A stretch of DNA of 32,743 nucleotides from Acidimicrobiia bacterium (GCA_029240695.1 JARDZU010000006.1:1-32743), one strand, 5' to 3'; shown: positions 3,999 to 30,372, counted from the first letter of the stretch. The notes: generated from the letters alone by a model not told the origin. A program made the numbers and translations.

Positions 3999-4095
3999 TC
4001 AGCGTGCTGGTTACCAGTACGTAATTCGATTTTTTTGCGACTCTGGATTTTGCACGATCCCGACTGGCCTGGGAGGACATGGAAAGGCTTGCCTC

Positions 4096-4125
4096 TTGAG
4101 CCAATATCACGCTCCGTGTTATTCT
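4096..4125 (+). promoter_or_regulatory. possible sigma70-like promoter for the plus-strand operon
   Basis: TTGAGC (4096-4101), 18 nt, TATTCT (4120-4125), about 40 nt upstream of an AGGGAGGA ribosome-binding site and ATG at 4165. Confidence 0.3.
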
Positions 4126-4164
4126 CCACGATCTCAGTGGGGTTATTCAGAGGGAGGACTCACC

Positions 4165-5043: not shown

Positions 5044-5044
5044 G

Positions 5045-8509: not shown

Positions 8510-9478
8510 GTGGTCGACGGAGGACGGACGTTGGCGATCGACATCAGCACGCTGGATCAAGACACCATCACCCGCGTGGTCAGTGACGTCCTGATGTCAT
8601 CTCGATCGATAGACCGGATCGAGGCCGTGGACACCTGGCGCACCCGCAACTCGGGGTTCTGGCGTTTTCGGGCCCATCCCGCGCAAGTGAATGACCAGCC
8701 GTTCGACGTGGTGTTCAAGGTGGAACGAAGATGGACTCCGGAGAGCGCAGAGGGTACCCATGACGCACTTCGTCGACTCTCCGACCTGCGACACCTGACG
8801 CCCGGGCCGTCGCCCAGCATCTCCTTCCCCGAGCCGTTGGGCTGGACCAGGGAGCCCCCCGGGGTGATCATGCCCAACGTCGAGGGTGTGGAGTTGTTCG
8901 ACGTGCTGGCTGACACAGGGCATGCTCTCTGGACCGACCCCGACCGCCCGTCTGAAGTAGTGAAGTCGTGCGGCGAAGCCTTCGGATGGATCCATCGCCT
9001 CGCCGTCATCGACCCAGAGACGGATGCCGTCCGTCAGGAGGCGCTGCAACGCTTGCCGGCCATCATGCGATGGGTCCTGGGGCGGTGGGCTCCAGCCAAG
9101 GAGGGGTCAGTGATTCGGAGTCACAACTTCTCGCGCAACGACTTCCTGGTCTCGAGCGATGCGCAGCTCTCGGTAGTCGACCCGCCGATCCTTGGCGCTC
9201 CGGCGCTGTTGCACGAGGACGTGGCGTGGTTCACCTACCAGTTGCTCACCCGCGCCGCACCCGGGCAACGGTTGGGGCTCCGGAGTCTGTTCCTCGAGGG
9301 CTATCAGTCCTCCAGCCTCGGTGGGCCTTTCGACAAAACCGACCTCAGAGGGGTCGGGATATACGAGGCATCTCGGGCCTTGGGCACTGCCAAGCGCCTG
9401 CTCATGAAAGGGGACTTCGCGGAAGCCCTGCAATCGTTCAAGATCGCATTGACCACACCCGGCCGCGTCTCCGGCTGA
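8510..9478 (+). CDS. divergent APH/choline-kinase-fold protein (catalytic loop altered)
   Basis: VIMPNVEGVELFDVL, GEAFGWIHRLA, SHNFSRNDFLVSSDAQLSVVDPP, HEDVAWFTYQL; aligns with the 15130-16092 product. True start may be TTG at 8531 after GGAGGA. Confidence 0.6.
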   Translation: MVDGGRTLAIDISTLDQDTITRVVSDVLMSSRSIDRIEAVDTWRTRNSGFWRFRAHPAQVNDQPFDVVFKVERRWTPESAEGTHDALRRLSDLRHLTPGPSPSISFPEPLGWTREPPGVIMPNVEGVELFDVLADTGHALWTDPDRPSEVVKSCGEAFGWIHRLAVIDPETDAVRQEALQRLPAIMRWVLGRWAPAKEGSVIRSHNFSRNDFLVSSDAQLSVVDPPILGAPALLHEDVAWFTYQLLTRAAPGQRLGLRSLFLEGYQSSSLGGPFDKTDLRGVGIYEASRALGTAKRLLMKGDFAEALQSFKIALTTPGRVSG

Positions 9479-9493
9479 TCCCAGCCCACCACA

Positions 9494-10459
9494 TCATCGG
9501 GTTCGAGGTTGATCGACTCTGAGGAAACCGAGACGGGCCAAGGCGGCAAGGAGTAGCGCGAGGAGGGCGATGAGTGACACCAGCCCCCACTCGACTCCCA
9601 GTGCCTGCTCGGCTGCGATCACAAGCGCAAGCAGGACAGCCTGTGTGGCGGCGGCGATCAGCGAGATGGCCCGCACCCCAACCCCGCGGTCACGTAGCTG
9701 GTCGTAGATGTGGCTGCGGTCTCCGAGAAAGAGCGGGCGATGGTTGAGCCGACGACGAAGGAGCGTCACGAGCATGTCGATTGCGAACACGCCGAGGACG
9801 CCGGCTGTGAACACCACCTCGATCGCCGATTCGTTGGTGGAGTCAATGATCAGATGCGTCAGATAGAGGCCGAGGAAATAGGTCCCGGCGTCGCCCATGA
9901 ACACACGTGCCGGGTGCCAGTTGAGGACGAGAAAGCCGGCCAAGGCCGCCCCGAGCTCGAGCGACGACACGAAGTCGAGGCCTCGACCCTGCGCGATCAC
10001 AGCCAATCCGGCCGCCGTCACCATTCCCACCGAACCAACCAGGCCGTCGAGGCCGTCGAAGAGATTGACGCTGTTGATGGCGAAGACCGCAAGCGCGACG
10101 CTGAGGACTATGAACACGACGCCGGGGTTCGAAGCAACGTTGAGGACCAACACGACTGCGGCCAGCACCTCGACGACCAGCCGCACCTTTGGATCGACCC
10201 CCACGCGGTCGTCGATCAGGCCGAGGATGAGAACCATGGTCGTGGCGATGAGAAGGCCCCACTCCAGGTCATTTCGCATCAGCGCGGCCGCGTTGACCCC
10301 GAGGAAAACCCCCACCCCACCCAGAGGCACCGCCGGCCGGGCGTGCGCCTTCAGTGCCGGGTCATCGGGGCGATCGACATATCCGACCTGGGGTCCCAGC
10401 CAGACTGCGAAAAGACACCAGGCCAGGCTGACGACACCGGCAACTATCAGGGCCGCCAA
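9494..10459 (-). CDS. WecA/MraY-type polyprenyl-phosphate sugar-1-phosphate transferase
   Basis: VDRPDDPALKAHARPAVPLGGVGVFLG, LGLIDDRVGVDPKVRLVVE, INSVNLFDGLDGL, VFMGDAGTYFLG, HRPLFLGDRSHIYDQL. Confidence 0.93.
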   Translation of the reverse strand: MAALIVAGVVSLAWCLFAVWLGPQVGYVDRPDDPALKAHARPAVPLGGVGVFLGVNAAALMRNDLEWGLLIATTMVLILGLIDDRVGVDPKVRLVVEVLAAVVLVLNVASNPGVVFIVLSVALAVFAINSVNLFDGLDGLVGSVGMVTAAGLAVIAQGRGLDFVSSLELGAALAGFLVLNWHPARVFMGDAGTYFLGLYLTHLIIDSTNESAIEVVFTAGVLGVFAIDMLVTLLRRRLNHRPLFLGDRSHIYDQLRDRGVGVRAISLIAAATQAVLLALVIAAEQALGVEWGLVSLIALLALLLAALARLGFLRVDQPRTR

Positions 10460-12237
10460 ACGAGGATCTCAGAGCGCTCGCCGGCATGGACCTGGATCCG
10501 CTCGGTGTCCTTGAAGCCCATCTTTCGGTAGGCGCCGATGGCCGTCTCGTTCTCTGAGCCAACGGTCACTTTCACCGCGGGCACTCCCCTCTGGTTCAGG
10601 TCGTCGAGCAGCCTCGCCCCCAACATCAGCGAAAGTCCCTTTCCCCGCGCTCTCGGAGCAACCACCATCGAGAGCAGTTCCGCCGGCACGTCTACCTGAT
10701 TCTGGCCATAGCGGAATGTCTCCCATGCCCGGCGCAGGTTGCTCGGTCTGATCAACCGGGGCAGGGCCGCCCATCCGGCTCGCCACCAATAATGCTTCGA
10801 GAAGTGGGCGTAGAACTCGCCGACGTTCTCCACTCCCGCCGTGAAGCCAACCGGTCCCCCGCCGTCGTCGACGACGACGACCACGGCCCCGTTCCAGGCG
10901 ATCAGCGCCTGATACAGGACCTTCATGAATCTCCGGCCAAGGAGGGGGAGAAACCCGGTTGCGATCAGTGAAGCGTGGAGCTCAGCCAGAGCCCGTGCGT
11001 CACGGGATGTGGCGAGCCGCATCTGGGGACGTGGCGCCGGGGTGATCATGGCGGGGGGCATGAGATGGCCGAGGCCTTTGGCGACGAGCCCGTCTCGGTA
11101 GGCATCCATGACGATGCTGACCACCTTCTCCTCATCGAAGCGCTCACGGGCGATGCTCGCGCTGGCCTCCGACATCTTGTTGCGCAGGGCCGCATCGTCG
11201 CCAACCTTCCGGATCGCCTCTCCCAGTCTCACCGGGTCGAGTACAGGGACCAGAAGCCCGTTGACACCGTCGTCGACGACCTGGCGACAGCCCCGGATGT
11301 CGGTGGCGATGACCGGGAGCCCCATTGCTGCCGCCTCCATCGCCGCCCTCGGGAATCCTTCCCGGTGCGATGGCAGGACGAATAGGTCCATCGCCGAATA
11401 CAGATCCTCCATGTCGGTGCGCATGCCGAGGAAACGCACGCCGGCTTCCTTGGCATTGGCGACGGCATCCGGCGGGAGGGCGTCTGACTTCTCAGGGTCG
11501 TCCGGTCCGATGACCACCACCTTGTATCCGTCACCGAGGTTGGTGGCGGCCTCGAACAACTCTGGATAGCCCTTCTCAGCGACGAGACGACCCACCATCC
11601 CCACCACCACGACGCCCTCGTCTACCCCGAACTCCGCTCTGAGACGGGAGCGCGCCTCTGGATCGACTCTGTCCCGGTCGAACCTCAAGAGGTCGACGCC
11701 ATTGCCAAGGAGCTGTCCCTTGCGGGAGGGAAGGATCCGGGTGCGACGGCAGAAGTCGAGATCCTCCACGTTCTGATGCAATTCCACGTCCGAGCACCGG
11801 GCGGCGACGGCCTCCAGGGCGTAGACGACGCCGCGCTTCAGTGGGTCGTCGTCTTCGGTGGCATACAGACCGTGCATCGTGTTGACCACGAGTGGAACCC
11901 CGGCGAGACGACCCAGGATCCGCCCGTACACGCCGGGCTTCGGGTTGTGGGTGTGGAGTACGTCGAATTGCTCTTTACGAAGGACCTTCCACAGCTGGGC
12001 GACTGCCTTCAGGTCGTTGCCCACGCTCATCCCTCTCGTCGACGCGGTGAGCGGGACATGCCGTATACCGTCCTGCTCGAGCTCCTCGACCCAGGGTCCC
12101 GGTGCGCTCACACCGACCGCTTCTCCTCCAGCCTCGTTAACCGCGAGAAGTTGGGGCCGGACGAGAAAGCGAAGACTGAGATCGACGGTGGTGAGGTGGG
12201 CGACCTGGAACGCCCGGCCCTCCAAGCTGTCATGCAT
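10447..12237 (-). CDS. bifunctional GT4 glycosyltransferase - GNAT acetyltransferase fusion
   Basis: 596 aa; GT4 part (LHTHNPKPGVYGRILGRLAGVPLVVNTMHG, VGRLVAEKGYPELFEA, PSHREGFPRAAMEAAAMGLPVIATD), then GNAT part (MVVAPRARGKGLSLMLGARLLDDL, VGSENETAIGAYRKMGFKD). Confidence 0.88.
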   Translation of the reverse strand: MHDSLEGRAFQVAHLTTVDLSLRFLVRPQLLAVNEAGGEAVGVSAPGPWVEELEQDGIRHVPLTASTRGMSVGNDLKAVAQLWKVLRKEQFDVLHTHNPKPGVYGRILGRLAGVPLVVNTMHGLYATEDDDPLKRGVVYALEAVAARCSDVELHQNVEDLDFCRRTRILPSRKGQLLGNGVDLLRFDRDRVDPEARSRLRAEFGVDEGVVVVGMVGRLVAEKGYPELFEAATNLGDGYKVVVIGPDDPEKSDALPPDAVANAKEAGVRFLGMRTDMEDLYSAMDLFVLPSHREGFPRAAMEAAAMGLPVIATDIRGCRQVVDDGVNGLLVPVLDPVRLGEAIRKVGDDAALRNKMSEASASIARERFDEEKVVSIVMDAYRDGLVAKGLGHLMPPAMITPAPRPQMRLATSRDARALAELHASLIATGFLPLLGRRFMKVLYQALIAWNGAVVVVVDDGGGPVGFTAGVENVGEFYAHFSKHYWWRAGWAALPRLIRPSNLRRAWETFRYGQNQVDVPAELLSMVVAPRARGKGLSLMLGARLLDDLNQRGVPAVKVTVGSENETAIGAYRKMGFKDTERIQVHAGERSEILVWRP

Positions 12238-12334
12238 GTCAGCCCACTACCAGCGGGGTCACTGCTGCTATCGCCGCCATGGATGCCAGAATACGGCCCA
12301 TGCATTTCCCACCCGGCATTGAGCAAACAGCCGC

Positions 12335-13585
12335 GTGAGCACGGGTGGTGTCCTCTTCCTGAACCCGAACCGGGCCGGGGGTCAGACGGCTCCGGTGACA
12401 TCCTGGATCAGTGTCGCCAGCTGGGCGGCGGCGGCCAGGAGGCTCTGGGGGCAGTCGTGGATCGTCACCCCCGAGGGCATTCTCGAACCAGAGGACGTCA
12501 TGCGGAGGGCATCTGACCCGGTCGCCCTCAAAGGCCCACCAGGTCCCGCGTCGCTGCGCCGCAAGGTGCCTACCACGGTCAAGACCGGGCTCAAGGACGC
12601 CCGAAAAGCTCTGGAGGCCCGCCGGTTCAGGGGAGCAGGGCTCGAAGGCCCGTGGCGTTCCGAGGAAGTGCGCTTCATCTGGCAGCGGCACGACCTCTTC
12701 CACGACGCAGGAGTGAGCGCGGCAAAGGCGCTGAAGCGCCCGTTGGTCGTCTTCACTCCCGCTCTCATCGTCCAGGAGGCGGCCGGCTGGGGTGTGAAAC
12801 GCCCGGGCTGGCAGGGGCTCCTGGAGCGGATCGCCGAGGCACCCTTGCTCAAAGCCGCCGATGTGGTGGCCTGCGGCTCGGTAGAGATCGCCGAGCAAGT
12901 GAGCCGGCTCGGGGTGCCCGAAGCGCGTCTCCTCGTGACACCGAATGGTGTCGATCCCGAGATGTTCTCGCCGGAGCGTCAAGGCGACGAGGTGAGACGG
13001 CGGCTCGGGCTGGAGAGCCGCTTCGTGATCGGGTGGGTGGGCAGCTTTCGTAAGTTCCATGGTCTCGACATGGCGTTGGAGGCGATGAAAAGGATCGCGT
13101 CCGAGATACCCGAGGCCACGCTTCTCCTCGTCGGAGACGGTCTGGAGCGGTCACATATCGAAGAGACCGTCCGGGCCCTTGGCCTCGAGAATGTCGTGAT
13201 GACCGGAACCGTGGGGTACCTCGATATACCCGAGCATGTGGCGGCGATGGACGTGGCGGTTATCACAGATCGCGGGGCGGGGTCCTTTCACTACTCCCCG
13301 CTCAAGCTCAGGGAGTACATGGCAGCGGGCAAGGCGGTGATCGCTCCCCGAGTCGGCGAGATGGCCAGATGGCTGGCGGACGGCGAGGACGCAGTGCTCG
13401 TCGAGAGCGGCGACACCGGAGGTCTTGCGGCAGCCATCGTCGATCTCCATGAGCGGCCCGAACTGAGGGCAAGGCTGGGGAAAGCCGCTCGTCGCAAGAT
13501 CCTCGAACAGGCGACCTGGGACATCCAGCTTCTCCGCATCGACGCTGCGCTGCACGGTGCCTCGAGTGCGCGGGCGCCTGGATGA
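12335..13585 (+). CDS. GT4-family glycosyltransferase
   Basis: 416 aa; VTPNGVDPEMFSPERQ, IGWVGSFRKFHGLDMALEAM, LLLVGDGLERSHIEE, SPLKLREYMAAGKAVIAP; GTG start. Confidence 0.9.
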   Translation: MSTGGVLFLNPNRAGGQTAPVTSWISVASWAAAARRLWGQSWIVTPEGILEPEDVMRRASDPVALKGPPGPASLRRKVPTTVKTGLKDARKALEARRFRGAGLEGPWRSEEVRFIWQRHDLFHDAGVSAAKALKRPLVVFTPALIVQEAAGWGVKRPGWQGLLERIAEAPLLKAADVVACGSVEIAEQVSRLGVPEARLLVTPNGVDPEMFSPERQGDEVRRRLGLESRFVIGWVGSFRKFHGLDMALEAMKRIASEIPEATLLLVGDGLERSHIEETVRALGLENVVMTGTVGYLDIPEHVAAMDVAVITDRGAGSFHYSPLKLREYMAAGKAVIAPRVGEMARWLADGEDAVLVESGDTGGLAAAIVDLHERPELRARLGKAARRKILEQATWDIQLLRIDAALHGASSARAPG

Positions 13586-14094
13586 GTGAGACACCTCTCG
13601 ACGAGTCTCTCAACCCGATCTGGGTGCTTCTCTCAAAGGGGGAAAGCCCAAATCTCTGGATGCCACCCACGGGAGGGAAGGAATGGGGAGCGTCGCTGGA
13701 GTCGGCGTCGGCTGCCCTAGGCGACGAGGAGCTCATCATCTCGGTGGGCCGGCCTCTGGCACGCTCGGCCCTGTCCCGCCTTTCCGGCCGGGGGCGTCTA
13801 TCGAGCAAGGGCCCCAGCCCGACAGAGATGACAGACGCATTCGCAAGGCAGGGGTTAGAGGTGATAGCCACTTATGGGCTCTGGCCGTCGGCCCGTTCCC
13901 CCCGAATTGCCTTCCCCTGGGGCCATATCCGCATGATCTACTGGCTACAGACCTCTGGCGTGCTCGGCGGTGGGGGCAACAGGCTCTGGGCCCGGATTCT
14001 GGCGAGGTCGGTTTTGTTCACGCCGGTCGCTGCCGCCATCGCCCCGGGCATCGCCTTCGTGGTTCGCCGATCCCGCAACGAAGTCGCTCGATGA
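13582..14094 (+). CDS. hypothetical protein (170 aa) in a GT-kinase operon
   Basis: ATGA overlaps with both neighbours (13582-13585 and 14091-14094) support translation; conserved-looking FARQGLEVIATYGLWPSARSPRIAFP segment and hydrophobic C-terminus. Confidence 0.7.
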   Translation: MSETPLDESLNPIWVLLSKGESPNLWMPPTGGKEWGASLESASAALGDEELIISVGRPLARSALSRLSGRGRLSSKGPSPTEMTDAFARQGLEVIATYGLWPSARSPRIAFPWGHIRMIYWLQTSGVLGGGGNRLWARILARSVLFTPVAAAIAPGIAFVVRRSRNEVAR

Positions 14095-15101
14095 TCGAAG
14101 AATTGACAGGCTACGCCAGGCAGGAATGGCAATCCTGGTTCGGGCATTCCCCTGAATCGGTGGGCATTGCGATCGGGAGCGGAGGGCCGGCCCATAGAAC
14201 GAGGGCCGCCGTGTTCGTGTTCGAGGACAGACGGGCGCGTCCATCGGTCGTGATGAAGATCGCCTTCACCGACCTCGAGGGAGCATTTCTTCGACATGAG
14301 CACGGTGCGCTCGCTGATATCCGGCCCCTCTTGCCGGAGCCGATGCGCCGAACTGTGCCCCGAGCCTTGGGTCTGGCGGAGATCGAGGGAAATACCGTCC
14401 TGACGATGGAGGCGCTAGCCGGGCGTCGCCTTCTCGTCCCCGATCTCAACGGTACAGGAGGCTCTCTACCACGGTCGTTGATGGGCGACTTCTACCGCAA
14501 GTCGTTCGAGTGGAGCAACGATCTCGCCGTCGCAACCAGCAGCACAGAGCGGCTCGATGGGTCACACCTCGCCGAGATCGTGGACCGGTACATCGGTCTG
14601 GTCTCCCACTCCACCGATGTCGAAGGAAAGGTGCGCAGCTTCCGTGATGCGGTGGCCGGGAGTGGAATCGCCTGGTCCACGTCCTGGCAACATGCCGACC
14701 TGGCGGTGGGCAACGTCCTGATGCATCGGGGGGAGTTGCGTCTCCTCGACTGGGAGCACGCATCCGATAAGTCACAGCCCTGGTTCGATCTAGCCCAGTC
14801 CGTCGGGGCGACGGCAAGGCTGGCCAAGCGTCAATCGGGCGCTGCCTCCTCCCGGGCCGCCGCAATGTCGGCTCTCGGTAGGTCGGGTTGGGCCGGCCAG
14901 GTGCTCCGGGCCGAGATCGAACGCGCCTGGGATAACCGGATGCCCCTCGGCTGGGTGATCGCTCTCAGCTCGATGGCAACCGCCATCCGGCAGGCAGACG
15001 ACACGCGTATGGGGGCCGACGACTGGACCGAGTTCGCCGCGTCGCTCGTCGCCGACAGAGAATTGCGATCGGAGCTCCCTTGGATGGTCCCCGACTGGTG
15101 A
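14091..15101 (+). CDS. APH/choline-kinase-family phosphotransferase
   Basis: 336 aa from ATG at 14091; WQHADLAVGNVLMHRGELRLLDWEHA matches the HxDxxxxN ... D-W-E kinase motif. Confidence 0.8.
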   Translation: MIEELTGYARQEWQSWFGHSPESVGIAIGSGGPAHRTRAAVFVFEDRRARPSVVMKIAFTDLEGAFLRHEHGALADIRPLLPEPMRRTVPRALGLAEIEGNTVLTMEALAGRRLLVPDLNGTGGSLPRSLMGDFYRKSFEWSNDLAVATSSTERLDGSHLAEIVDRYIGLVSHSTDVEGKVRSFRDAVAGSGIAWSTSWQHADLAVGNVLMHRGELRLLDWEHASDKSQPWFDLAQSVGATARLAKRQSGAASSRAAAMSALGRSGWAGQVLRAEIERAWDNRMPLGWVIALSSMATAIRQADDTRMGADDWTEFAASLVADRELRSELPWMVPDW

Positions 15102-15129
15102 TGAATGGTGACGGCGCTCAGCGCCAGCA

Positions 15130-16092
15130 TCACCCTCTGGCTGCCTTCCTCCAAAGCATTGCCAAACGGAGGTAGGCAGGTACTTCGCCAAGCTCACGCT
15201 GGCGCAGCCGGCGGCGCACTGTCCACAGACTTCGATGGGACCGATAGAGGGCGAGCAGCGCCCGATCGGCGGGAGTGTCGAGGGTGACCGGTCCGGTTCG
15301 GCGGTACCCGTCATGGAACGAATCGGCCAATTTGGCCCTCGCGTCGTCGAATGCCCCACCCTTCTCTGACGTTTCCGAGCCGAGACGGCGCTCGAGATTG
15401 AACAGAAACCAGGCCACATCTCGATGCACCAGATCGAGGGCAGGTGGAGACGGCTGGTCCATGATCCACGCCTTCCCGCCGGGCCCGAGCCTGATGTTGT
15501 ACGGGGCGAAGTCCCCGTACCGCCTCGCGGTAGAGCTGACGAGATCGATGGCGTCGAGAAACCACGGCTGGACCATCAATGTTCTCGCCATACCTTCGAG
15601 TTCCGCACGGATCGAAGTCGGGTCGGACACCAAGTCCGCCAACGGACTCTGGCTGTGAAACGATCCCAGCGCGTCGCCACACGCCTCGATGACCGATCGA
15701 AACGTATCTGCCGTGTCGTGGCCGGCGGCGCGGAGAAGCTTCCCGAGGTCCTCGCCAGGGACATACGCGATGCATAGGCAGGGCGGCGCCGCATGCCAGC
15801 CCATCGGTTGGGCAATTTCGAGAGACGACCCGGCATCAGTGAGAAGCGTTGACAGGGCGATGAGGTCGTCGTGGATTCTCCGCGCCTCGGTCAGGTCCCA
15901 ATCCCTCCCCACTTTGATCAGGGCGATCGGCGCGTCGCCTTCGGACGTGCTGAGCTCGTAGAACGTCGACGTGTGACTGACGAATCGGCCAGTGGGGACC
16001 GCAGTCGCCAATTCCCGAGCCGTCTCGAAGCTCTGTGCCAGGTCTGAGGCGACAGCCTTCAGCTCGGTCTCGGTCAGTAGATCGGCTGGCAC
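15130..16092 (-). CDS. divergent APH-fold kinase-like protein
   Basis: GDALGSFHSQSPL, RRYGDFAPYNIRLGPGGKAWIMDQPSPP, HRDVAWFLFNLERR; Tyr at the usual His of HGD. Confidence 0.7.
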   Translation of the reverse strand: MPADLLTETELKAVASDLAQSFETARELATAVPTGRFVSHTSTFYELSTSEGDAPIALIKVGRDWDLTEARRIHDDLIALSTLLTDAGSSLEIAQPMGWHAAPPCLCIAYVPGEDLGKLLRAAGHDTADTFRSVIEACGDALGSFHSQSPLADLVSDPTSIRAELEGMARTLMVQPWFLDAIDLVSSTARRYGDFAPYNIRLGPGGKAWIMDQPSPPALDLVHRDVAWFLFNLERRLGSETSEKGGAFDDARAKLADSFHDGYRRTGPVTLDTPADRALLALYRSHRSLWTVRRRLRQRELGEVPAYLRLAMLWRKAARG

Positions 16093-16098
16093 GCCTGC

Positions 16099-17214
16099 TC
16101 AGGCCCGACCGCGGGCGATGAAGGGCTCCAGCACGTCATGCCAATGTTCGACCGAGGCCTGGAGAGTGAACATGTCCATGCACCGCGTCCTTGCCTTCTG
16201 ACCCATCGCCTCCCTCAGGGCACGATCCGAGACCAGCCTCCGAACCGCGTCTGTCATCCCCGGCTTGTCCTCGATGTCGACCAACAGCCCGGTCACCCCG
16301 TCCTCGATCACATCCCGGGCCCCGGGGACCCTGGTCGCCACCGTGGCCAGACCGGAGAGCCCTGCTTCGATCAGCACACCCGGCATTCCCTCACCTGGGG
16401 GGAGGCTGGTGAAGACGAAGATGTCGTTCTCGGAGAGAAGCTGAGGCACGTCGCTGCGTCTGCCCAGCATCTCTATGCGTGCCTCCCCGGCGCGTGCGCC
16501 GAGCGATTGCTCCAGCGGCCCGTCTCCGACCATGGCGGCATCGAAGTCGAGATCATCCTGTCTCAGCGCCGCGACAACATCGATGAACCAGTCCGGGCGC
16601 TTTCCTGGATCGAGATGGCCCACGAAAATGACGCCCGCCCGCCCGTCTCTGCCACCGACGTGAGGCGGGAAGTCGACCGGGTCCCGGGCGTTGGGGATGA
16701 CCACAAGACGATCCTGGGGCACGTCGTAGAGCTGGTTGGCCTCCTCTGCCACGTCGCTCGACACCGCGGCGACGATGTTGGCCCGTCGGGTGTAGTAGCC
16801 GTGGAGGGACCGATTCGCCTTCCGCTGAAGTGCCCGGTGAGCGGTGCCGACCTTCAGATACACGAGGGGCAAGTCGCGCGGGAGGGCGATGGCGGCGTAC
16901 TTGGCCGACTCGCCTCCGTGGGCCACGACTACTGCCGGAGCGATACGCTTCACCTCGCTGCGGAGCCGTCGGACTACTCGCGGATCGAGGCCGAGCCGGC
17001 GGAGCATCCCGCGCGGCACATCGAGCTCGACATCGGGCCGAAGCAGAACAGGATCCGCTCGGAACAAGGTCAGGATCTGATGCGATTCGTCTTCGGTGTT
17101 GAGTGCATCGACAAGCGCTCGGGCATAACGCTGGGCGCCTCTCGCCAGGTCATAGGGGAGAACGTGGAGAACGACGGGCGGAGTCGGGGAGCCCGGCATC
17201 TCGGTCAATGACAT
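16099..17214 (-). CDS. GT4-family glycosyltransferase
   Basis: VLHVLPYDLARGAQRYARALV, IFVGHLDPGKRPDWFIDV, FTSLPPGEGMPGVLIEAGLSGLATVA; ATG at 17214 overlaps the upstream gene's stop by 10 nt. Confidence 0.9.
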   Translation of the reverse strand: MSLTEMPGSPTPPVVLHVLPYDLARGAQRYARALVDALNTEDESHQILTLFRADPVLLRPDVELDVPRGMLRRLGLDPRVVRRLRSEVKRIAPAVVVAHGGESAKYAAIALPRDLPLVYLKVGTAHRALQRKANRSLHGYYTRRANIVAAVSSDVAEEANQLYDVPQDRLVVIPNARDPVDFPPHVGGRDGRAGVIFVGHLDPGKRPDWFIDVVAALRQDDLDFDAAMVGDGPLEQSLGARAGEARIEMLGRRSDVPQLLSENDIFVFTSLPPGEGMPGVLIEAGLSGLATVATRVPGARDVIEDGVTGLLVDIEDKPGMTDAVRRLVSDRALREAMGQKARTRCMDMFTLQASVEHWHDVLEPFIARGRA

Positions 17215-18776
17215 GCACCGATGCCGACATCGACAAAGGTCGAGCCGGCTTCGGGGATGAACTCCCACTCGTATCCGTCGGCATACAGGGCCAGTTTGAG
17301 GATCCCGAACGAATCGGTGTATCGGGTTTCGCTGTTCGGGGCGACCTGGTCGAAGCTGCGGTTTCCCGTGCCCCCGGTTCCGGCGACGATCTGCCGGATC
17401 CCCTCGACCGGATCGTGAGTGCCATCGGGATCCTGAGGGGCAAAACGCTCGTAGTTGTGATCGTGCCCGTTGACCACGAGATCTGCCTCGCCCTCGTAGA
17501 GCGCAGCGAATAGGTCCCTCATCCCGGGATCGCCCCCGTGGTCACCCGAGCTGAACAGGGGGTGATGCCAGTAGGCCAGCGTGCATGCCGCATCTGAAGA
17601 ACCCAACTCTTGCTGGAGCCATCGCACCTGAGGCGAACCTGTCTCGCAAGCCACGTCTCCGCAGTTGGAATTGAGCACGAGGACCTGCCAGTCGCCGGCT
17701 TGGTAGCTGTAGTAGCCCTCACCAGGTTGGCCTGCGGCCTCGCCAAAGTAGCCAAAGTAACCAGTGGCATCGGAGGTGTTGTAGTCGTGGTTCCCGGGCG
17801 CCGGCCGGGTCCGATCCTTGTGCCGTCCCCAGGTCGGGTCATAACACTGGGCAAATTCCTCCGCCGAACCGTCCGAGTAGACGTTGTCTCCTGTGGTGAA
17901 AACGATGGTGGAAGGGTTCTGGGCGACAACACCGTCGATGAGATCGGCGGTGACGGTGTCGCCATCGTTACCACAATCCGAGATGTCGCCAGCGCCGGCG
18001 AGCACGACCGGTGTGCCTGTCAATTGAGCCACTGGCTCTGACTCCGCTGCCGCCGCCTCTGCCGAGCCCCAGTCGAGGATGAGAAGGGGAGCGTTTGCCC
18101 CGCTCTCGAGCGCGGCGAACTCGGCACTGTCGTCAGTTGAGGTGGTGAGATAGAAGTCGTAGGTGCCAGGCCCCAGGACGACGGAAGTCAGGTCCACGTC
18201 CACCGTGGAGCCCTCCGCAGTTCCGGGAGGAATGGTGGCGATCTGGGCCCCGACCGCTGGGGCATTCGCCCCGTTTGCATCGGCCTGAGTCCACGGGCCA
18301 TCTACCTCGTGCACCATGACCACCTCATCGGTGTCCGCTATCACGAAGAGTCGCATCGAGACGCTCTGGAGCGTTTCACCCTCGGGGATGTCGCCGACGA
18401 CGAAGCGAACCAGGGCCTGCTTGTTCTCGGGCGGATCGTTCTCTATCTCGAGCACGTCTTCGAAGCCGTTGATCTCTTCCGGCTGGCCGCTGTTGACGGA
18501 GGTGTCCTCACTAGCCGTGACGGCGAGTTGGCCCGGGGGCATGGAGACGGTCGGTGAAGTTGGCGCGACAGCGGTGGTCGAAGGCGCGTCGACCGAGACA
18601 GGAGGTGCCGGGGTTGTGGTCGGGGCCGCCGCAGGCTCCTGCGAAAGACCGCCCGTGGCAAGGAAGCCGATCACCAGGCCCACCAGGATCGTGAGCACCA
18701 CCGCCAGGACGATGATGATCGTCTGTCTGTTGTCCTTTGGTGTGGCGTCACCACCGTTCATGTTTTCGCCGTTCAT
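17205..18776 (-). CDS. membrane-anchored calcineurin-like metallophosphoesterase with N-terminal beta-sandwich (DNRLRE/CBM96-like) domain
   Basis: TM segment (IIIVLAVVLTILVGLVIGFLA), Thr/Pro linker, catalytic motifs GAGDISDCG, TTGDNVYSDG, PGNHDY, YWHHPLF, VNGHDHNYERF; ATG at 18776 overlaps the phytase stop (ATGA). Confidence 0.9.
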   Translation of the reverse strand: MNGENMNGGDATPKDNRQTIIIVLAVVLTILVGLVIGFLATGGLSQEPAAAPTTTPAPPVSVDAPSTTAVAPTSPTVSMPPGQLAVTASEDTSVNSGQPEEINGFEDVLEIENDPPENKQALVRFVVGDIPEGETLQSVSMRLFVIADTDEVVMVHEVDGPWTQADANGANAPAVGAQIATIPPGTAEGSTVDVDLTSVVLGPGTYDFYLTTSTDDSAEFAALESGANAPLLILDWGSAEAAAAESEPVAQLTGTPVVLAGAGDISDCGNDGDTVTADLIDGVVAQNPSTIVFTTGDNVYSDGSAEEFAQCYDPTWGRHKDRTRPAPGNHDYNTSDATGYFGYFGEAAGQPGEGYYSYQAGDWQVLVLNSNCGDVACETGSPQVRWLQQELGSSDAACTLAYWHHPLFSSGDHGGDPGMRDLFAALYEGEADLVVNGHDHNYERFAPQDPDGTHDPVEGIRQIVAGTGGTGNRSFDQVAPNSETRYTDSFGILKLALYADGYEWEFIPEAGSTFVDVGIGACH

Positions 18777-20419
18777 CTGCCCTCCGCATACTCGAGACGA
18801 AGTCCAGGAGCCTGCCCGGCGTCTCCTTCGAAGGCAACAGCCGCTCGTCGTCCGGCCCCCTCCGCGCGCACGACCAACCTCAGGCTCCCTCCGGGCTCCC
18901 ATCCTGGCGACGCGACGATCTCCCTGATGACCGCCGACAAGTCCGGAGTCTGCTGAAAGACACCGCGCTCCTCGTCGTCCCATCCCGCGGGCGCCCATGT
19001 CACGGCCTCTGTCTCTGCACTGCCCTCGTCGATGACACCGCTGATGGAGAGCACCAGGTCGGAATCATCGACCCCGGCAGCGGTGAACTGGACGTGGGCG
19101 CTCCTGACGGTTGAGTCAGCGGACACGTTCAGTCCAGGAAACTCCAATGCCACCGTGCTGTCAGAGTCGAAGACGAGGGTGGTTCCAGCTTCCACCGTGC
19201 CGTCAGTCGCCAACTGTCCATCTTCCTCCGCAGCCGATACCGCGGTCCGCCTCACCGACCAGTTCGAAGGTGTGGTGGCGATGTCGGAGGGCAGGGGCAC
19301 ATGTGGCAGGTTCGTCGGGCTGTCTCCACGCGGGTTCCAGCCGGTCTCGATGGCAAGAGCCGGATTGGGGGCCCCGGCTACGACATCCCAGGGAACGAGC
19401 TTGAAGTTCTGGTTCCCCGAATCGTTGTCCCCGTCCTGCGCCACGAATAGCCCGTTGGGAAATCCGGCACCCAAGGGAGCACTCATCACATCGATGCCAT
19501 CGGTGCTGCTGGTGCCGTCGATCGAAGCGGAATCGACGATCTGGAAATTCGAGACGTGCTCATTGTCTCCGGTGCGGTTGTACGTTGCGTACTGCCCCGA
19601 GCCCTGACTCGACGCGATCAGATAGCCGGCTCCGTCAGGGCCGTAGTAGATCGTCAGTCCCTCCACGTCGGCCTCCAAGGTCGAACCGACCTGATCGACG
19701 GGGACGCGGGAGGAGCCGCCGCCGGGCTCTGCCTCATATTTCCAAATGCCCACGGCTTCCTCCGCAACGTACAGGTAGGCGTGGTCGTCGTCGGCGACAC
19801 ATCCTTCGGCGGTGCTCTCCATGGAGATGTCACGCACCTGGGTCGCGGTCACTCCGCCCGCACCCCCGTCCGAGAGTTGGAACTGGCGCACCGGCCCGGA
19901 CCCGTCCGAGGTGACAAAGACGAAGAAGGTCCCGGTCTCGGGGCTGCGATAGAGGCACACGCCGAGGACGTCCAGGCCAGTAGCGATCGGCGAGGCCACC
20001 TCGACGAGCTGGCGGGTCTGGGGATCGACTCGGTGGATGGTGATGGCTTCATCGTCCTGTTCGCTGGTGACCACGATGTCTACCGGCTGGCCGGCCAGGG
20101 GAAAGCCATGGCGTATGTCGACGTTGTTGGGACGGATCCCGGCGAGATATTGGATCTGGCGGCCATCGAGGGCATAGACGGCGAGACCGCCTTCCTTGTC
20201 AGTTCCGATGACGGTCGAAAGCGCCGGGTCGGTGGGATGGAGCCAGATGGCTGGGTCGTCGGCCGCATCACCGCCGTTGGGAACCGGATCGGTTTCGACG
20301 GTCGCGGTCACGTCGGTCGTTTGGGCCTGCGCCGGCAGCCAGGACTCGCCCACCATCACTGATGCCACGATGACACCGACGACGAGCGCGCTTAGAACCC
20401 GCGGGCTCCTCCTCCACAT
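18773..20419 (-). CDS. secreted beta-propeller phytase (3-phytase) with C-terminal beta-sandwich domain
   Basis: signal peptide; GDAADDPAIWLHPTDP, RPNNVDIRHGF, TAEGCVADDDHAYLYVAEEAVGIWKY, ADVEGLTIYYGPDGAGYLIASSQGSGQYATYNR, TDGIDVMSAPLG..GLFVAQDGDN. Confidence 0.93.
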   Translation of the reverse strand: MWRRSPRVLSALVVGVIVASVMVGESWLPAQAQTTDVTATVETDPVPNGGDAADDPAIWLHPTDPALSTVIGTDKEGGLAVYALDGRQIQYLAGIRPNNVDIRHGFPLAGQPVDIVVTSEQDDEAITIHRVDPQTRQLVEVASPIATGLDVLGVCLYRSPETGTFFVFVTSDGSGPVRQFQLSDGGAGGVTATQVRDISMESTAEGCVADDDHAYLYVAEEAVGIWKYEAEPGGGSSRVPVDQVGSTLEADVEGLTIYYGPDGAGYLIASSQGSGQYATYNRTGDNEHVSNFQIVDSASIDGTSSTDGIDVMSAPLGAGFPNGLFVAQDGDNDSGNQNFKLVPWDVVAGAPNPALAIETGWNPRGDSPTNLPHVPLPSDIATTPSNWSVRRTAVSAAEEDGQLATDGTVEAGTTLVFDSDSTVALEFPGLNVSADSTVRSAHVQFTAAGVDDSDLVLSISGVIDEGSAETEAVTWAPAGWDDEERGVFQQTPDLSAVIREIVASPGWEPGGSLRLVVRAEGAGRRAAVAFEGDAGQAPGLRLEYAEGR

Positions 20420-20455
20420 GGAAAGGCATGTTAATGGTGACCGCCATCAAGCAGT

Positions 20456-21382
20456 TCAGAACGGGCTTGGTGCGCTTTCTGCCGGCTCGGTGACCCGTGT
20501 ACCGACGTAAATCCCGACGCCCAGAGCGATCAGGTAGCCGGCGACGATGACGATCAGAGCGGGAAGCATGTTGTCGAATCGGGCTGCAATCCGCGAGCAA
20601 ATAACGACCAAGACGAACTGAGGAATCGAGGCCACCACCGCGCCCAGCCAGTTCTGCCTGACCCTGTTGACCAGGTTGGCCGTGCCGGGACGAAGCCGGA
20701 AGATGATCGGCTCGAGCAGGAGCAGTCCCAAGCAGGCCGCAGATCCTGCGATCGACGGTGGACGGCCGCCCCCACCGGCTGCAGCCACCCAGAGGAATGC
20801 CCCCACGGCCACGAAGGAGCCCTCCATGCCCAGCGAGACGGCCACCTTGGGCCAGGCGAGAAGGGTGATCGGCAGAGCAGCTGCCATGAGAACCAGAGCT
20901 TGTTCCGTGTCGGGAACGGCAGCAAAGGTGCCGAGCACAGCAAGTGTGAAGTAGATGACGCCGAGTCCGAGACGTTGGTTGCGTGTCTCGAAGTCATTGA
21001 TGAGAAATCCACCGACCGGGATCAGCACCGCCATCAGGACCCGAACCCAGGTCAGGTCGGTGACAGTCGCACCGAAGCCCAGCCACACCGAGCCAGGCAC
21101 CGCAGCCAGTATCTGCACCCAAGCCGGGGCCCGGGTCAAGCGCACGATCAGGACTCCGATGGCTATCGCTGCGAGGGCGGGGACCGCAGGCCCGAGTGGC
21201 TCAGCCACGAGGTACAGGCCACCAATCGTGGCGATCGCGACGAGCAACCCGGCAATTGGCATTGGGGGTCGATAGCGGCCAGTCACAAATCGAAGGGCCC
21301 AGCCCAGTGCTAGCGCCAGTACACCAAGGCGGAGCCCGGTCGTGAAGAAGCCCGTCTCGAAAAGAGCGAGGAGATCGGACAC
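20456..21382 (-). CDS. polytopic membrane protein of unknown function
   Basis: 308 aa with about eight or more hydrophobic segments; codirectional with flanking secreted-protein genes. Confidence 0.65.
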   Translation of the reverse strand: MSDLLALFETGFFTTGLRLGVLALALGWALRFVTGRYRPPMPIAGLLVAIATIGGLYLVAEPLGPAVPALAAIAIGVLIVRLTRAPAWVQILAAVPGSVWLGFGATVTDLTWVRVLMAVLIPVGGFLINDFETRNQRLGLGVIYFTLAVLGTFAAVPDTEQALVLMAAALPITLLAWPKVAVSLGMEGSFVAVGAFLWVAAAGGGGRPPSIAGSAACLGLLLLEPIIFRLRPGTANLVNRVRQNWLGAVVASIPQFVLVVICSRIAARFDNMLPALIVIVAGYLIALGVGIYVGTRVTEPAESAPSPF

Positions 21383-21406
21383 GGAGGCGATTCTAGAACG
21401 GGGCTC

Positions 21407-23068: not shown

Positions 23069-24462
23069 GGGAGATGGATCACGAGGAGGACGACCTCCCC
23101 GAAGCCGTCGTCCGCGCCGAGCGGTCCGGCGTTCGCACCCATGTAGATCGTGTCGCCGGCGGGTGACACCGCCATGCTGAATGTCCCGCCGAGACGCAAC
23201 CCGAGACCCTCCTCTGTGAGGGGATTGAGCTCTGCCATGACCGTCTGCTCACCGGTTGCGGTGTCGACACTGGTGAGCGCGCCGCCGAATGCCCAGGCGT
23301 CGCCGTGGGCATCAGGCATGAAGAAGAATCGATCACCCGAGGGGTGAATGGCCATGGTTGCGGTGTATTCGGCCGGATTGCCGAGGCCCTCGATCGACCC
23401 GTCTGGATTTAGAACGAAGAACGCGTCGGGATCCCGGGTGACCGCGAACACCCTTCCGTCCTCGGCCGGCGTGGTCGAAGCCCTGAGCCAGTCACCGGGC
23501 ATCTGGTGGGGGTGAGTCGTCACCTCGTTGGTCGCCGGGTCATAAACCGACAGCTCGCCACCGCCGATCGAGTAGTACGCCCGCCCCTCGCCATCGACCA
23601 TCACGTTTCGGAACCCGGAATGCGGCGACGCCGGGCCTTCGAAGACCAATTGCTCACGCAGGACGTTGTAGACGAAGAACGGGCCGGCGTCGACGTTCTG
23701 AGCCTCCGCGATCGGGTCGATCGCCTCGCCGTATACCAGTCCCAGGTCCGACGATCCCGCCAGCGAGGGAATGCCGTGCTCCTGGATTGGGACTCCCAGG
23801 GCTGCGATCGTGCGCTGCTCGGGATCGAGTCGGAAGAGATAGTCCCCGGTGTAGGACGACCCGTACTGGAGATCACGGTTGGTGCCCCAGTAGGAGGCGA
23901 AATACACCTCGCCACAGGGCCCGGCGGCCATCTGACCGTGGACCTTGCCGTATCCCCAGGCCCCCGGAGTGTGATCGACGTAGGACAGGAGATCGCCGAG
24001 TGTGCTGAGCGTCCCGGTCGCCGGGTCGTACTCGTAAACGAAGGAGTTCCCATCAGGGCCGAGATGGTCGCCTATCGCAGAGACGAAACGGCCATCGTCC
24101 AGGGCTATGCCCTGACCCCACATGGTCCAGGGGTCGCCCTGGTAGTCGGGCCGCGGGTACACCACGCCCTCGACTTGCATCCCATTCACTTCGCCGAGGT
24201 CAACCAACTGGGCGCTCGGGCCACCAACGTATGGCTGACCGGGTGGGACATCGCATGACGGGTCGACAGCCCCGGTGACTGGGGTCGACTGGCTCGTCTC
24301 AGGCTGTGTACTCGATGTCTGCCCCTGTGTGGTGGGCGTCGCCGCTTCGGGGGAGTTGGGATCTGAATCCCCTCCGCCCGCCAGTCTGCTCCCGAGAAAC
24401 CACCCGCCGGCCAGGGCTACCGTCAACCCCCCGACGACCAAAACCCATTTCCACGCCCCCAC
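23065..24462 (-). CDS. membrane-anchored/secreted beta-propeller-like protein
   Basis: N-terminal TM, Ser/Thr/Gln linker, repeated FVYEYDPATGTLSTLGDL / LFRLDPEQRTIAALG / LSVYDPATNEVTTHP segments; ATGA overlap with the downstream gene. Confidence 0.7.
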   Translation of the reverse strand: MGAWKWVLVVGGLTVALAGGWFLGSRLAGGGDSDPNSPEAATPTTQGQTSSTQPETSQSTPVTGAVDPSCDVPPGQPYVGGPSAQLVDLGEVNGMQVEGVVYPRPDYQGDPWTMWGQGIALDDGRFVSAIGDHLGPDGNSFVYEYDPATGTLSTLGDLLSYVDHTPGAWGYGKVHGQMAAGPCGEVYFASYWGTNRDLQYGSSYTGDYLFRLDPEQRTIAALGVPIQEHGIPSLAGSSDLGLVYGEAIDPIAEAQNVDAGPFFVYNVLREQLVFEGPASPHSGFRNVMVDGEGRAYYSIGGGELSVYDPATNEVTTHPHQMPGDWLRASTTPAEDGRVFAVTRDPDAFFVLNPDGSIEGLGNPAEYTATMAIHPSGDRFFFMPDAHGDAWAFGGALTSVDTATGEQTVMAELNPLTEEGLGLRLGGTFSMAVSPAGDTIYMGANAGPLGADDGFGEVVLLVIHLP

Positions 24463-24639
24463 GGCATGCCCTCCCGTCTTCGTGACCGGACGATAGTGCG
24501 TTCTGCATATTGTTTGACCACGGAGGGCGGTTACACTCTCATTCGTCTAGGGGGGGCGCACACGCAAACCGTGGTTTACTTGATTCGACGCCGACTTCAT
24601 TCGATGCGGCGTCCTGGGCGTTGAGGGGTTTGACAGGAA

Positions 24640-25644
24640 ATGAGCGAACGCGATCCGAGCATCTCGGTCAAAGACCTGACCAAGGTCTATGAGCCCTCGC
24701 CCACGTGGATGAAGCTCATGGTGAAGAGCAACATCAAGAACGCAGTGGTCGCGCTCGACGGCATCACCTTCGAGGTTGGGCCCGGTGAGATCTGCGCTGT
24801 GGTCGGCCCCAATGGTGCCGGCAAGACCACGACGTTCCGCATCCTCCTCGGTCTCACCACTCCATCTACCGGGACCGCCACGGTTGGTGGATACGACGCC
24901 CAACACGAGTCGGTCGCAGTCCGACGCATGGTCGGCTGGATGCCTGGCCAGGACGTCAGCCTGCTGGGCCGCCTCACCTGTGTCGAGAACCTCCGTTTCC
25001 ACGGCCGTCTCCAGGGACTCAAAGGTGAGGATCTCAAAGGGCGGATATACGACTCCCTGGCCAAGGTCGGCCTCTCCCATGCCGCTGAGCATTCCGTCTT
25101 TGCCCTCTCCTCCGGAATGCGGGCACGACTCCAGCTCGCCCGTGCCCTGCTGCATAGCCCAAGCGTGCTGATCCTCGATGAGCCCACAGGCGCCATCGAC
25201 CCGGTAGCTGCCCACGAGCTCCTCGGCCTGATCATCTCCATCGTCGAGGAAGAGCGGCTCGCCTGCATGATCAGCTCGCACCGTCTCGAGGAAATCGAAG
25301 CCCTCCACTCTCACGTCGTCCTCCTCGACAAGGGGCGGATCCGGTACGACGGAGACCTCGATGAGTTGAGAGATCTCGTGGACCGGGAGCAGCTCGAGAT
25401 CGAGTTCAAGACCGACGAGAGTGCCCGTCAGGCACGAAAGCTCATCGACGCCGCCGGTCTGGGTGAGTCGATCACCGTCGAGGGATCCCAGCTGACGACG
25501 GTTCTGACCTCATCCGAGACGACGACCGGAGACGTCCTCGCAGTTCTCGAGACGGTGGCACCAGAGGTGGTGCATCTCCAGGAGGTGCAGCGACCGCTCC
25601 GCGACCTCCTCGCCGACATGTATCGGGAGAAACAAGCGAAATGA
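24640..25644 (+). CDS. ABC transporter ATP-binding protein (ABC-2/DrrA-like)
   Basis: VVGPNGAGKTTTFRILLGL (Walker A), ALSSGMRARLQLARALLHSPSVLILDEPTGAIDP (signature and Walker B), ISSHRLEEIEAL. Confidence 0.93.
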   Translation: MSERDPSISVKDLTKVYEPSPTWMKLMVKSNIKNAVVALDGITFEVGPGEICAVVGPNGAGKTTTFRILLGLTTPSTGTATVGGYDAQHESVAVRRMVGWMPGQDVSLLGRLTCVENLRFHGRLQGLKGEDLKGRIYDSLAKVGLSHAAEHSVFALSSGMRARLQLARALLHSPSVLILDEPTGAIDPVAAHELLGLIISIVEEERLACMISSHRLEEIEALHSHVVLLDKGRIRYDGDLDELRDLVDREQLEIEFKTDESARQARKLIDAAGLGESITVEGSQLTTVLTSSETTTGDVLAVLETVAPEVVHLQEVQRPLRDLLADMYREKQAK

Positions 25645-26510
25645 GTGTCGAGACCAAGGCCCCGGAAGCGGAGGAGCACGGGCGTCGCAAGAAGCGGCGC
25701 TCACCGAACAGACCCACCCCTTCGATCGCGGTTGCGTTCCTCCGCATGGATGCCATCGAGGAATTCAGCTACCCCATGTCGCTCATTCTCAGCGAGCTTG
25801 GAACCGTCCTGCCGGTTCTGGTCTCGTTCTTCATCGGCGACCTGGTCGGTGAGTCGGCCGAGGTCGGTGGCGACTATTTCACCTTCGCCGTACTCGGGTT
25901 GGCGGTGTCCGCGATTCTCCAGGGCGCCTTGAGCGGGTTCGGAGGCAACCTGCAACGCGCCCTGAACCGGGGCTCGCTGGAGACCCTGTTGGTTGAGCCG
26001 GTCCCGTGGACGTTCCTCCCATTTGCCATGAATCTCTGGCACACCATGATGGGAGTGCTCGAAGGGGCCATCATTCTCGCGATGGGTGCCCTGCTCGGGG
26101 CGGAGTACCTGGCCTCGGGGTGGTGGGAGTTCCTCGTCCTGCTCGTGCTGGGGATACTTGCTTGCACCGCCATCGGGATCGTGTCGGCAGCCATCCTCAT
26201 CATCTCGAAGCGGTCCAAGCCCTTCCTCACTCTATATGGCATGGCGGCGTCATTGCTCGCCGGTGCCGTGTTCTCCGTCGACCAGCTTCCCTCCTGGCTG
26301 CAGACCCTGTCCTGGGCCATCCCACACACGTATGTCATCAACGCCAGCCGCGCCGTGCTCATGGAAGACCCGGGCACGTTCGTCGTCCCGTTCCAAATGG
26401 CAGTCATCGCACTCCTTGCCTTCAATGTGGTGGTGCTCGCTGGTGGTCTCTGGCTGTTCTCCCGCTCACTCGAGTACGGGAGAAAGATGGGCATGCTGAG
26501 CGGCTACTAG
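25641..26510 (+). CDS. ABC-2 type transporter permease
   Basis: 289 aa with about six hydrophobic segments; start overlaps the ATPase stop (ATGA). Confidence 0.87.
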   Translation: MSVETKAPEAEEHGRRKKRRSPNRPTPSIAVAFLRMDAIEEFSYPMSLILSELGTVLPVLVSFFIGDLVGESAEVGGDYFTFAVLGLAVSAILQGALSGFGGNLQRALNRGSLETLLVEPVPWTFLPFAMNLWHTMMGVLEGAIILAMGALLGAEYLASGWWEFLVLLVLGILACTAIGIVSAAILIISKRSKPFLTLYGMAASLLAGAVFSVDQLPSWLQTLSWAIPHTYVINASRAVLMEDPGTFVVPFQMAVIALLAFNVVVLAGGLWLFSRSLEYGRKMGMLSGY

Positions 26511-26518
26511 GCCGGCCC

Positions 26519-27511
26519 GTGCCCTTCGACCATCGACCCGACGTCCCTGGAGCCGATGTGCTGCAGAGGGCCCTGGTGGCCCTGGCGGACAAACACTCGA
26601 TCGCGCCGGAGTCCCTGACCTGGAGGGTGGGCGACCGCAACGACCGCAAACGCTCGACGCTCTTCCCCTTGACCTTACGATCCACCGAAGGAACGGTGGC
26701 GACGGCTTGGTACAAGACACCCTACTTTCCGCCAGCAGAGCAAGACTCCCGACATCTGGGCCGGGCACGCGAGGCCCTCAGTCGGGGCGACGAGATGGCG
26801 CGACGTTTCATGGAGCTCGCCGGCGAATCCTCAATCGCCATCAACGAGACGCTGGCCTTCGACGAAGACACGCTCGAGGTGGTGACCCTCGGGCTGGAAG
26901 GCGAGCCGATGGGCAACCCGTTGCAGTTTGCCTTTACTGGCAAGAGTCGAACCAGGGCCTTGGCCGCTGTGGCAGCAGTCGGACAGGCGGTCCGGTTTCT
27001 CGAGAGTTTCCCCCAGCCCGAGCCTGGCCCAGAGCTGGACCGCATCTGGAAGGAGACGGAGCGAAAAGTCGAGTCCATCGGGCCGCTGCTGTCAGAGGCC
27101 GATCGGAGGAGTCTCGAGACCCATCTCGGCGAGCTGTTCGACTTGGCCTCAGCCGACACCCACGGAGTAACCGTCTCACACGGAGACCTCAGCCCCGGGA
27201 ACGTGATAATGATGGACGACGGCACCGGTCTGATCGATTTCGGCTGGATACCCCAGCTTCGTGGCTTCGACCTCTCCCGATTCGCTCATCGCCTCCGGTA
27301 CACCACCACGTCGTTCCGACCCTGGACCGAGGCTCTGATTTGCGCCGTCACGGATGGGTATGGAGACCCGGATGCCGCCTCCCGACCCGGATGGCAGTTC
27401 TCGGAGATGCAGCGGTTGATGGGCACGATTCAGCGTCTCGAGCGGAAAGGTGAGGGGGGTCGGAGATCGGCAGGGCGTGCCTTGGCCGAGATCCGGGCGG
27501 GGCTCACATGA
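26519..27511 (+). CDS. APH/choline-kinase-family phosphotransferase
   Basis: VSHGDLSPGNVIMMDDGTGLIDFGWIPQ matches HGDxxxxN ... DFG; GTG at 26519 follows the permease stop; the longer ORF from 26006 overlaps the permease and is rejected. Confidence 0.85.
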   Translation: MPFDHRPDVPGADVLQRALVALADKHSIAPESLTWRVGDRNDRKRSTLFPLTLRSTEGTVATAWYKTPYFPPAEQDSRHLGRAREALSRGDEMARRFMELAGESSIAINETLAFDEDTLEVVTLGLEGEPMGNPLQFAFTGKSRTRALAAVAAVGQAVRFLESFPQPEPGPELDRIWKETERKVESIGPLLSEADRRSLETHLGELFDLASADTHGVTVSHGDLSPGNVIMMDDGTGLIDFGWIPQLRGFDLSRFAHRLRYTTTSFRPWTEALICAVTDGYGDPDAASRPGWQFSEMQRLMGTIQRLERKGEGGRRSAGRALAEIRAGLT

Positions 27512-30169: not shown

Positions 30170-30372
30170 TATGAAACCCCCTGGTGCCTTCCCCGCACCG
30201 GTAGACCAGGAAGAGCGATAGCCCTCCACCCAACGCCGCGGAGCATACATGTCCTTTGATTGTTGTGCCACGTCGAGTGGTCGGCGAACGTGATGAGTGA
30301 CCAGAGGGACTAGACCCGTTGCTGCCTCCTCGGGCTCGTTCTTGACGACGCCCCGAAACAGGCTCTATCGTG

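Follow-up and report, generated by a model that had tools for sequence, protein, structure and literature searches.

Genes of the APH fold commonly carry the annotation aminoglycoside phosphotransferase, and the APH family includes choline, ethanolamine and amino sugar kinases. WaaP and KdkA are enzymes of kinase-like fold that phosphorylate sugars of envelope glycans. The action of WaaP on an envelope glycan sugar is described in PMC6147952, and WbdD of E. coli O9a is a chain terminator that consists of an N-domain and a kinase and belongs to a WecA-primed pathway (PMC3482155). A further described group is formed by the spore kinases CotS, YtaA/CotI, YutH and YsxE, none of which had been assayed when PMC2860764 was published. 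The literature search for APH-type kinases in capsule or EPS loci gave only a passing mention, namely that the cps1 region of Akkermansia is flanked by a gene for an aminoglycoside phosphotransferase (PMC13343947), and no glycan-phosphorylating enzyme of the kind discussed below was found for Actinomycetota in the literature searched.

The analysed window is an entire contig (C49, 32,743 bp) of the Acidimicrobiia genome G000, which is 2.89 Mb in size and 93% complete. Based on gene calls and Pfam/NCBIfam matches, an envelope-glycan locus of a WecA-initiated and probably Wzy-type kind spans the window from base 19 to about 17,200. The genes for Wzz/BY-kinase (- strand), PglF (-), an epimerase (+), GT4a (+) and GNAT (+) occupy positions 19..7091 and were assigned with Pfam/NCBIfam; their order is kept in relatives. 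They are followed by Poly465 (7088..8485, +), a polytopic polymerase-like protein of 465 aa that gave no match in the Pfam search and has 37-47% homologs in relatives, usually adjoining WecA. The core also comprises a WecA-like polyprenyl-phosphate glycosyl-1-phosphate transferase (9494..10459, -), assigned by PF00953 with the ECA_wecA model below its cut-off, and a GT4-GNAT fusion (10447..12237, -) with 54-60% counterparts in relatives.

The four APH open reading frames are located at 8510..9478 (APH1, +), 14091..15101 (APH2, +), 15130..16092 (APH3, -) and 26519..27511 (APH4, +). They have good coding scores and belong to tight gene runs, with gaps of 6-28 nt or overlaps between neighbours. 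Their embedding in glycan-assembly operons, proposed in the first-pass annotation, is supported. APH1 begins 24 nt after Poly465. The GT4b glycosyltransferase (12335..13585, +; Pfam GT4) opens a cassette in which it overlaps orf170 (13582..14094, +) by 4 nt, and orf170 in turn overlaps APH2 by 4 nt. APH3 lies 6 nt from the GT4c glycosyltransferase (16099..17211, -; Pfam). APH4 is placed 8 nt after the permease gene of an ABC exporter (24640..26510, +; Pfam, NCBIfam) and overlaps by 4 nt the gene of a sulfotransferase (27508..28410, +; PF13469, E 2e-29).

The APH fold, whose signature had been noticed earlier in all four products, holds for each of them on the evidence of Pfam scores, homology between APH1 and APH3, PDB matches of the APH3 model and profile-profile links. 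The window proteins share the fold with the PF01636 phosphotransferases, and APH2, APH4 and, with Tyr for His, APH3 also the catalytic residues, but the curated gathering cut-off of 23.2 bits was passed by APH4 alone (29.4 bits); APH2 scored 22.3 bits, about 1 bit below, and APH1 a sub-threshold 15.4 bits, APH3 gave no match in the Pfam search, and the divergence of both APH1 and APH3 puts them beyond the reach of Pfam. The two are nevertheless related to one another (27% identity, E 4e-19). The AlphaFold model of APH3, built from a four-sequence alignment, had a mean pLDDT of 64.7, with values of largely 80-94 in the N-lobe and below 50 at residues 149-198, near the catalytic loop. The best PDB matches of this model (Foldseek) were the APH kinases PsiK (E 8e-6), APH(2'')-IVa (E 1.3e-5), YihE (E 4.8e-5) and APH(3')-Ia. 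APH2 was modelled from its single sequence, with a pLDDT of 40.6, too low to be of use. Profile-profile comparison linked the APH2 family with the APH4 family (E 1.9e-8) and with the APH1/3 family (E 9e-6). The proteins can be divided into three subfamilies: A with APH1 and APH3, B with APH4 and F with APH2, where A and B rest on 3-4 sequences each. None of the NCBIfam equivalog models exceeded its cut-off for the APH proteins, and with cut-offs of 205 and 675 in the aminoglycoside-resistance kinase models, APH4 reached 13.2 bits at best.

The core genes were present in the same order in five relatives (G015, G013, G021, G005 and G007). Each of them has the Poly465-like gene and WecA tail to tail and at most 18 nt apart, and no gap between the GT4-GNAT gene and the GT4c-type gene, which abut or overlap; in the window, APH1 is inserted in the first of these junctions, and GT4b-orf170-APH2 together with APH3 in the second. 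In the core stretches retrieved for the five relatives, no APH-type gene was found except the APH4 homolog of G015. Among the 395 genomes of the class, strong subfamily A matches occurred only in G000, G002 and G018, and subfamily B only in G000, G006 and G015, and more than one APH subfamily was found in no sampled genome (G002, G018, G006, G015) other than G000. Because the five relatives keep the core without the insertions and the distributions of the subfamilies are separate and patchy, the four APH genes are best regarded as accessory genes that joined the core locus independently. The idea of one phosphoglycan system with four members, put forward in the first-pass annotation, is not supported and was rejected, as the subfamilies do not co-occur in the sampled relatives. 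In GC and GC3, the APH genes resemble their neighbours, so that no foreign composition and no sign of recent import was seen.

The neighbourhoods are conserved in relatives, as the earlier reading demanded, and the association with glycan genes is kept for each subfamily. The congener G002 has phytase, metallophosphatase, GT4c (65% identity) and the APH3 homolog (37%) in the same order as the window. In G018, which belongs to another genus, the APH1/3 homolog follows a GT4 gene, with Wzz, a sulfotransferase and a polymerase-like gene nearby.

What is new in this locus is a recurring N-domain+APH module and not a four-kinase system. With APH2 as the starting point, proteins of some 505-592 aa that carry the APH domain at the C-terminus were found in G237, G245, G035, G037, G044, G050 and G418. 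In G435 and G455, the module is split into a gene of 203 or 230 aa and an APH gene, and the split pair of G455 follows a GT4 gene, the same arrangement as in GT4b-orf170-APH2. Family profiles recovered APH2 in its own genome with E 1e-9 (3 sequences) and with E 4e-23 and 1.5e-21 (8 sequences). A family F match at E 1e-8 was obtained in 17 of the 157 genomes of the phylum, and the scan of the contigs of the named genome collection gave no match for APH2.

The orf170 product, previously described as a 170-aa orphan, matched a profile of six N-domains at E 1.4e-5 (next 0.19), as the sole match among the window open reading frames and 200 shuffles, and a second N-domain profile at E 1.5e-5, a significance reached only once the split partners from G435 and G455 had joined the profile. 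A broader, mixed N-domain profile gave an E of only 0.015, and the first mixed profile and the pairwise shuffles gave no significance. The protein has 170 aa vs about 200 aa of the N-domain, and most of its first half is not alignable. Because the N-domain profiles select orf170 and the relatives carry the module in split or fused form, orf170 can be assigned as a shortened N-domain partner of APH2 rather than an orphan. APH2 thus fits the family profile and has an N-domain gene directly upstream. For the N-domain and orf170, the searches of Pfam, NCBIfam and the PDB gave nothing noteworthy. By analogy with WbdD, the N-domain with its stretch LLRPGGWLYLEL was also considered as a SAM methyltransferase. 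This candidate was not supported, as there was no methyltransferase match in Pfam/NCBIfam, and the sequence-level comparison with five E. coli methyltransferases (hhalign) gave E 0.2-0.4, the same as for negative controls.

The N-domain+APH modules, fused or split, recur in glycan loci of Actinomycetota. In G044, a Wzx-type flippase precedes the fused gene and a Wzy_C protein follows it, both confirmed by Pfam, which also confirmed Wzy_C in G035. Profiles detected Wzx and Wzy genes around the fused gene in G035, G037 and G050, in G418 it stands between Wzx and GT4, and the split pair of G435 adjoins GT4/Wzy_C. Wzx, Wzy, GT4 or GT2 genes were present within 6 kb at 16 of the 18 family F loci and at none of 11 other APH matches in the genome of the window (hypergeometric about 2e-6, computed by hand), a count that is partly circular, as the proteins behind some profiles came from these very loci, and in which the 18 loci are mutually related, two of them are weaker relatives and several of the 11 controls are weak matches. 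A tentative and rather doubtful extension of these observations is that N-domain+APH proteins form an uncharacterised class of glycan-modifying kinases in Wzx/Wzy-type loci of Actinomycetota, in which the APH domain would phosphorylate the lipid-linked repeat unit, and recognition of this unit or of its glycosyltransferase would fall to the N-domain. If this were true, phosphate would commonly decorate or cap the surface polymers of actinobacteria and would have gone unrecognised in this role.

The alignment of catalytic motifs from the window APH proteins and 19 relatives showed intact loops in APH2 (QHADLAVGN..LLDWE, with K, HAD, N and DWE present) and APH4 (SHGDLSPGN..LIDFG, with K, HGD, N and DFG present), the two that had been called near-canonical. 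The description of the other two as altered holds for APH1 and was overstated for APH3, in which (YGDFAPYN..IMDQP) the sole change is His to Tyr, and K, the catalytic Asp, Asn and the metal Asp are kept. APH1 reads SHNFSRNDF..VVDPP where the others read HGDxxxxN; the catalytic Asp is lost, Asn is replaced by Asp, and the beta3 Lys and the metal-binding Asp are retained. The same catalytic loss in the G018 homolog of APH1 (GYRFSPNDF) argues for an old pseudokinase form and not fresh decay. Judged by these motifs, APH2 and APH4 look canonical, APH3 nearly canonical and APH1 dead, so that at least one pseudokinase member, as was suspected, is likely.

The proteins are most likely carbohydrate kinases that would modify the glycan or lipid-linked intermediates. 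In our proposal, for which we see an even chance, accessory APH-fold proteins were acquired separately on a conserved glycan locus, and APH2, APH3 and APH4, the predicted active kinases, would probably use ATP to phosphorylate a hydroxyl group on the glycan, on its lipid-linked precursor or on one of the building blocks of the glycan. APH2 would work with orf170, a cut-down N-domain that in relatives belongs to the same chain or is encoded by the gene directly upstream, and APH1, with its catalytic base lost, would most likely be a binding or scaffold pseudokinase. For APH2, APH3 and APH4, the residues and the gene context were observed, and from them we infer activity, substrate, timing and linkage.

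A different and unlikely explanation is that the proteins are mainly non-catalytic docking or assembly partners of the adjoining glycosyltransferases, as proposed for CotS/YtaA, with kinase activity being secondary. It would fit with APH1 and its G018 homolog, which lack the catalytic Asp yet are full length as far as sequenced, and with the closeness of APH3 to GT4c, which it adjoins also in G002. In Bacillus, the assembly of CotSA depends on CotS, and five of the BSK classes are predicted to consist of pseudokinases (PMC2860764). However, the residues K, D, N and D are retained in APH2, APH4 and the aligned N+APH relatives, pointing to selection for catalysis.

It is decidedly improbable that the proteins are LicA- or AmgK-like small-molecule kinases supplying phosphorylated choline, ethanolamine or amino sugar as a precursor for glycan decoration. 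Such kinases occur in the APH family, and APH2 and APH4 gave weak choline-kinase matches, but neither LicC/LicD, already noted as missing in the first reading, nor a sugar nucleotidyltransferase was found among the window genes scanned, and no equivalog model exceeded its cut-off.

For APH4, the window is syntenic with G006, in which the ABC ATPase, permease, APH4 (60%), sulfotransferase (77%) and an LRR protein were found. In G015, the APH4 homolog (28%) is located within a glycan locus that also holds the genes for PglF, Wzz and a sugar nucleotidylyltransferase-like protein. Within the contigs of the named genome collection, the APH4 family was limited to two MAGs of Acidimicrobiia and a single weak match in Fictibacillus. 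It is hardly probable that APH4, the exporter and the sulfotransferase stand outside the glycan system as a cassette for natural-product modification or self-resistance. In favour of this reading, the ABC subunits resemble DrrA/DrrB and NodI/NodJ (NCBIfam), corramycin phosphotransferase is the top PDB match for APH4 (E 4e-4) and the operon is kept as a unit in G006; against it, the homolog in G015 belongs to a glycan locus and no natural-product synthase was identified among the window genes.

Under the preferred reading, that of glycan phosphorylation, a defined two-part module of N-domain and kinase emerges, and its recurrence together with flippases, polymerases/ligases and glycosyltransferases is a pointer to surface glycans decorated or capped with phosphate. 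WaaP and KdkA act on the LPS core, unlike the setting of the window; the only trace match was that of the 3-deoxy-D-manno-octulosonic acid kinase model to the G015 homolog of APH4 (16.9 bits vs a cut-off of 142). By analogy, the closest functional precedents would be WbdD and the spore kinases, and family membership is claimed for neither. WbdD likewise has an N-terminal domain of about 210 residues followed by a kinase-fold domain and belongs to a WecA-primed glycan pathway (PMC3482155). However, its N-domain is a methyltransferase (PMC3482155), a likeness not found for the window N-domain in the comparison with five E. coli methyltransferases, and its kinase is similar to the protein kinases of eukaryotes and has a coiled coil behind it, whereas the APH2 family is APH-type. 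The spore kinases belong to a different phylum, no spore context was seen in the window, the NCBIfam spore-kinase models gave no match at E <= 1 for the window APH proteins, and no N-domain partner of spore kinases was found in the sections of PMC2860764 consulted. They have in common with the proteins described here the APH/CAK-type kinase fold, the close grouping of their genes with those for GT4 glycosyltransferases and with sugar genes, and the mixture of likely active members with pseudokinases. The present locus would be a non-spore parallel to their GT4-kinase pairing, with the kinase-dead member included.

The run of phytase and metallophosphatase genes with the glycosyltransferase gene GT4c and the APH-fold kinase gene APH3 is conserved in two species (16099-20419 in the window; 1-4319 of L025, a stretch of a relative's DNA). 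The metallophosphatase looks secreted and carries a CBM96 domain. In this run, phosphate-removing enzymes adjoin APH3, a putative phosphate-adding kinase. The 308-aa membrane-type protein encoded at 20456-21382, which had no family match, has a counterpart (32%) adjoining GT4c in the related genome G015. Within the family's core glycan locus, the GT4-GNAT fusion protein (10447-12237) is 54-60% conserved.

In G018, a genome of another genus, the end of contig C103 and the start of contig C177 (L026 and L027) overlap within the homolog of APH1 and APH3 with a small number of differences, and the locus appears to continue into sulfotransferase and SGNH-like genes. Other neighbours of APH genes were recorded in the loci of relatives. 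A fused protein in L138 (8022-9311), separated from the APH gene by a 203-aa gene, combines a weakly matching nucleotidyltransferase-like part and a thymidylate-kinase-like P-loop part; the one adjoining the APH gene in L141 (5073-6398) is similar to it by eye. In L140, an RtcB-like protein (4264-5697; PF01139, E 5e-41) immediately adjoins the APH gene of a glycan locus.

The SLH region of the window LRR/SLH protein (28484-30271) shares 42-58% identity with the SLH regions of relatives' proteins, which flank the loci with consecutive Wzx flippase, fused N-domain-APH kinase and Wzy_C genes (L111, L112, L113 and L114) or lie inside another relative's glycan locus (L083, 4339-5655). As wall polymers are frequent ligands of SLH domains, the glycan could serve as an anchor.

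The exporter adjoining APH4 (24640-26510) is similar to DrrAB and NodIJ; given the sulfotransferase close by, it may export a sulfated glycolipid or product.
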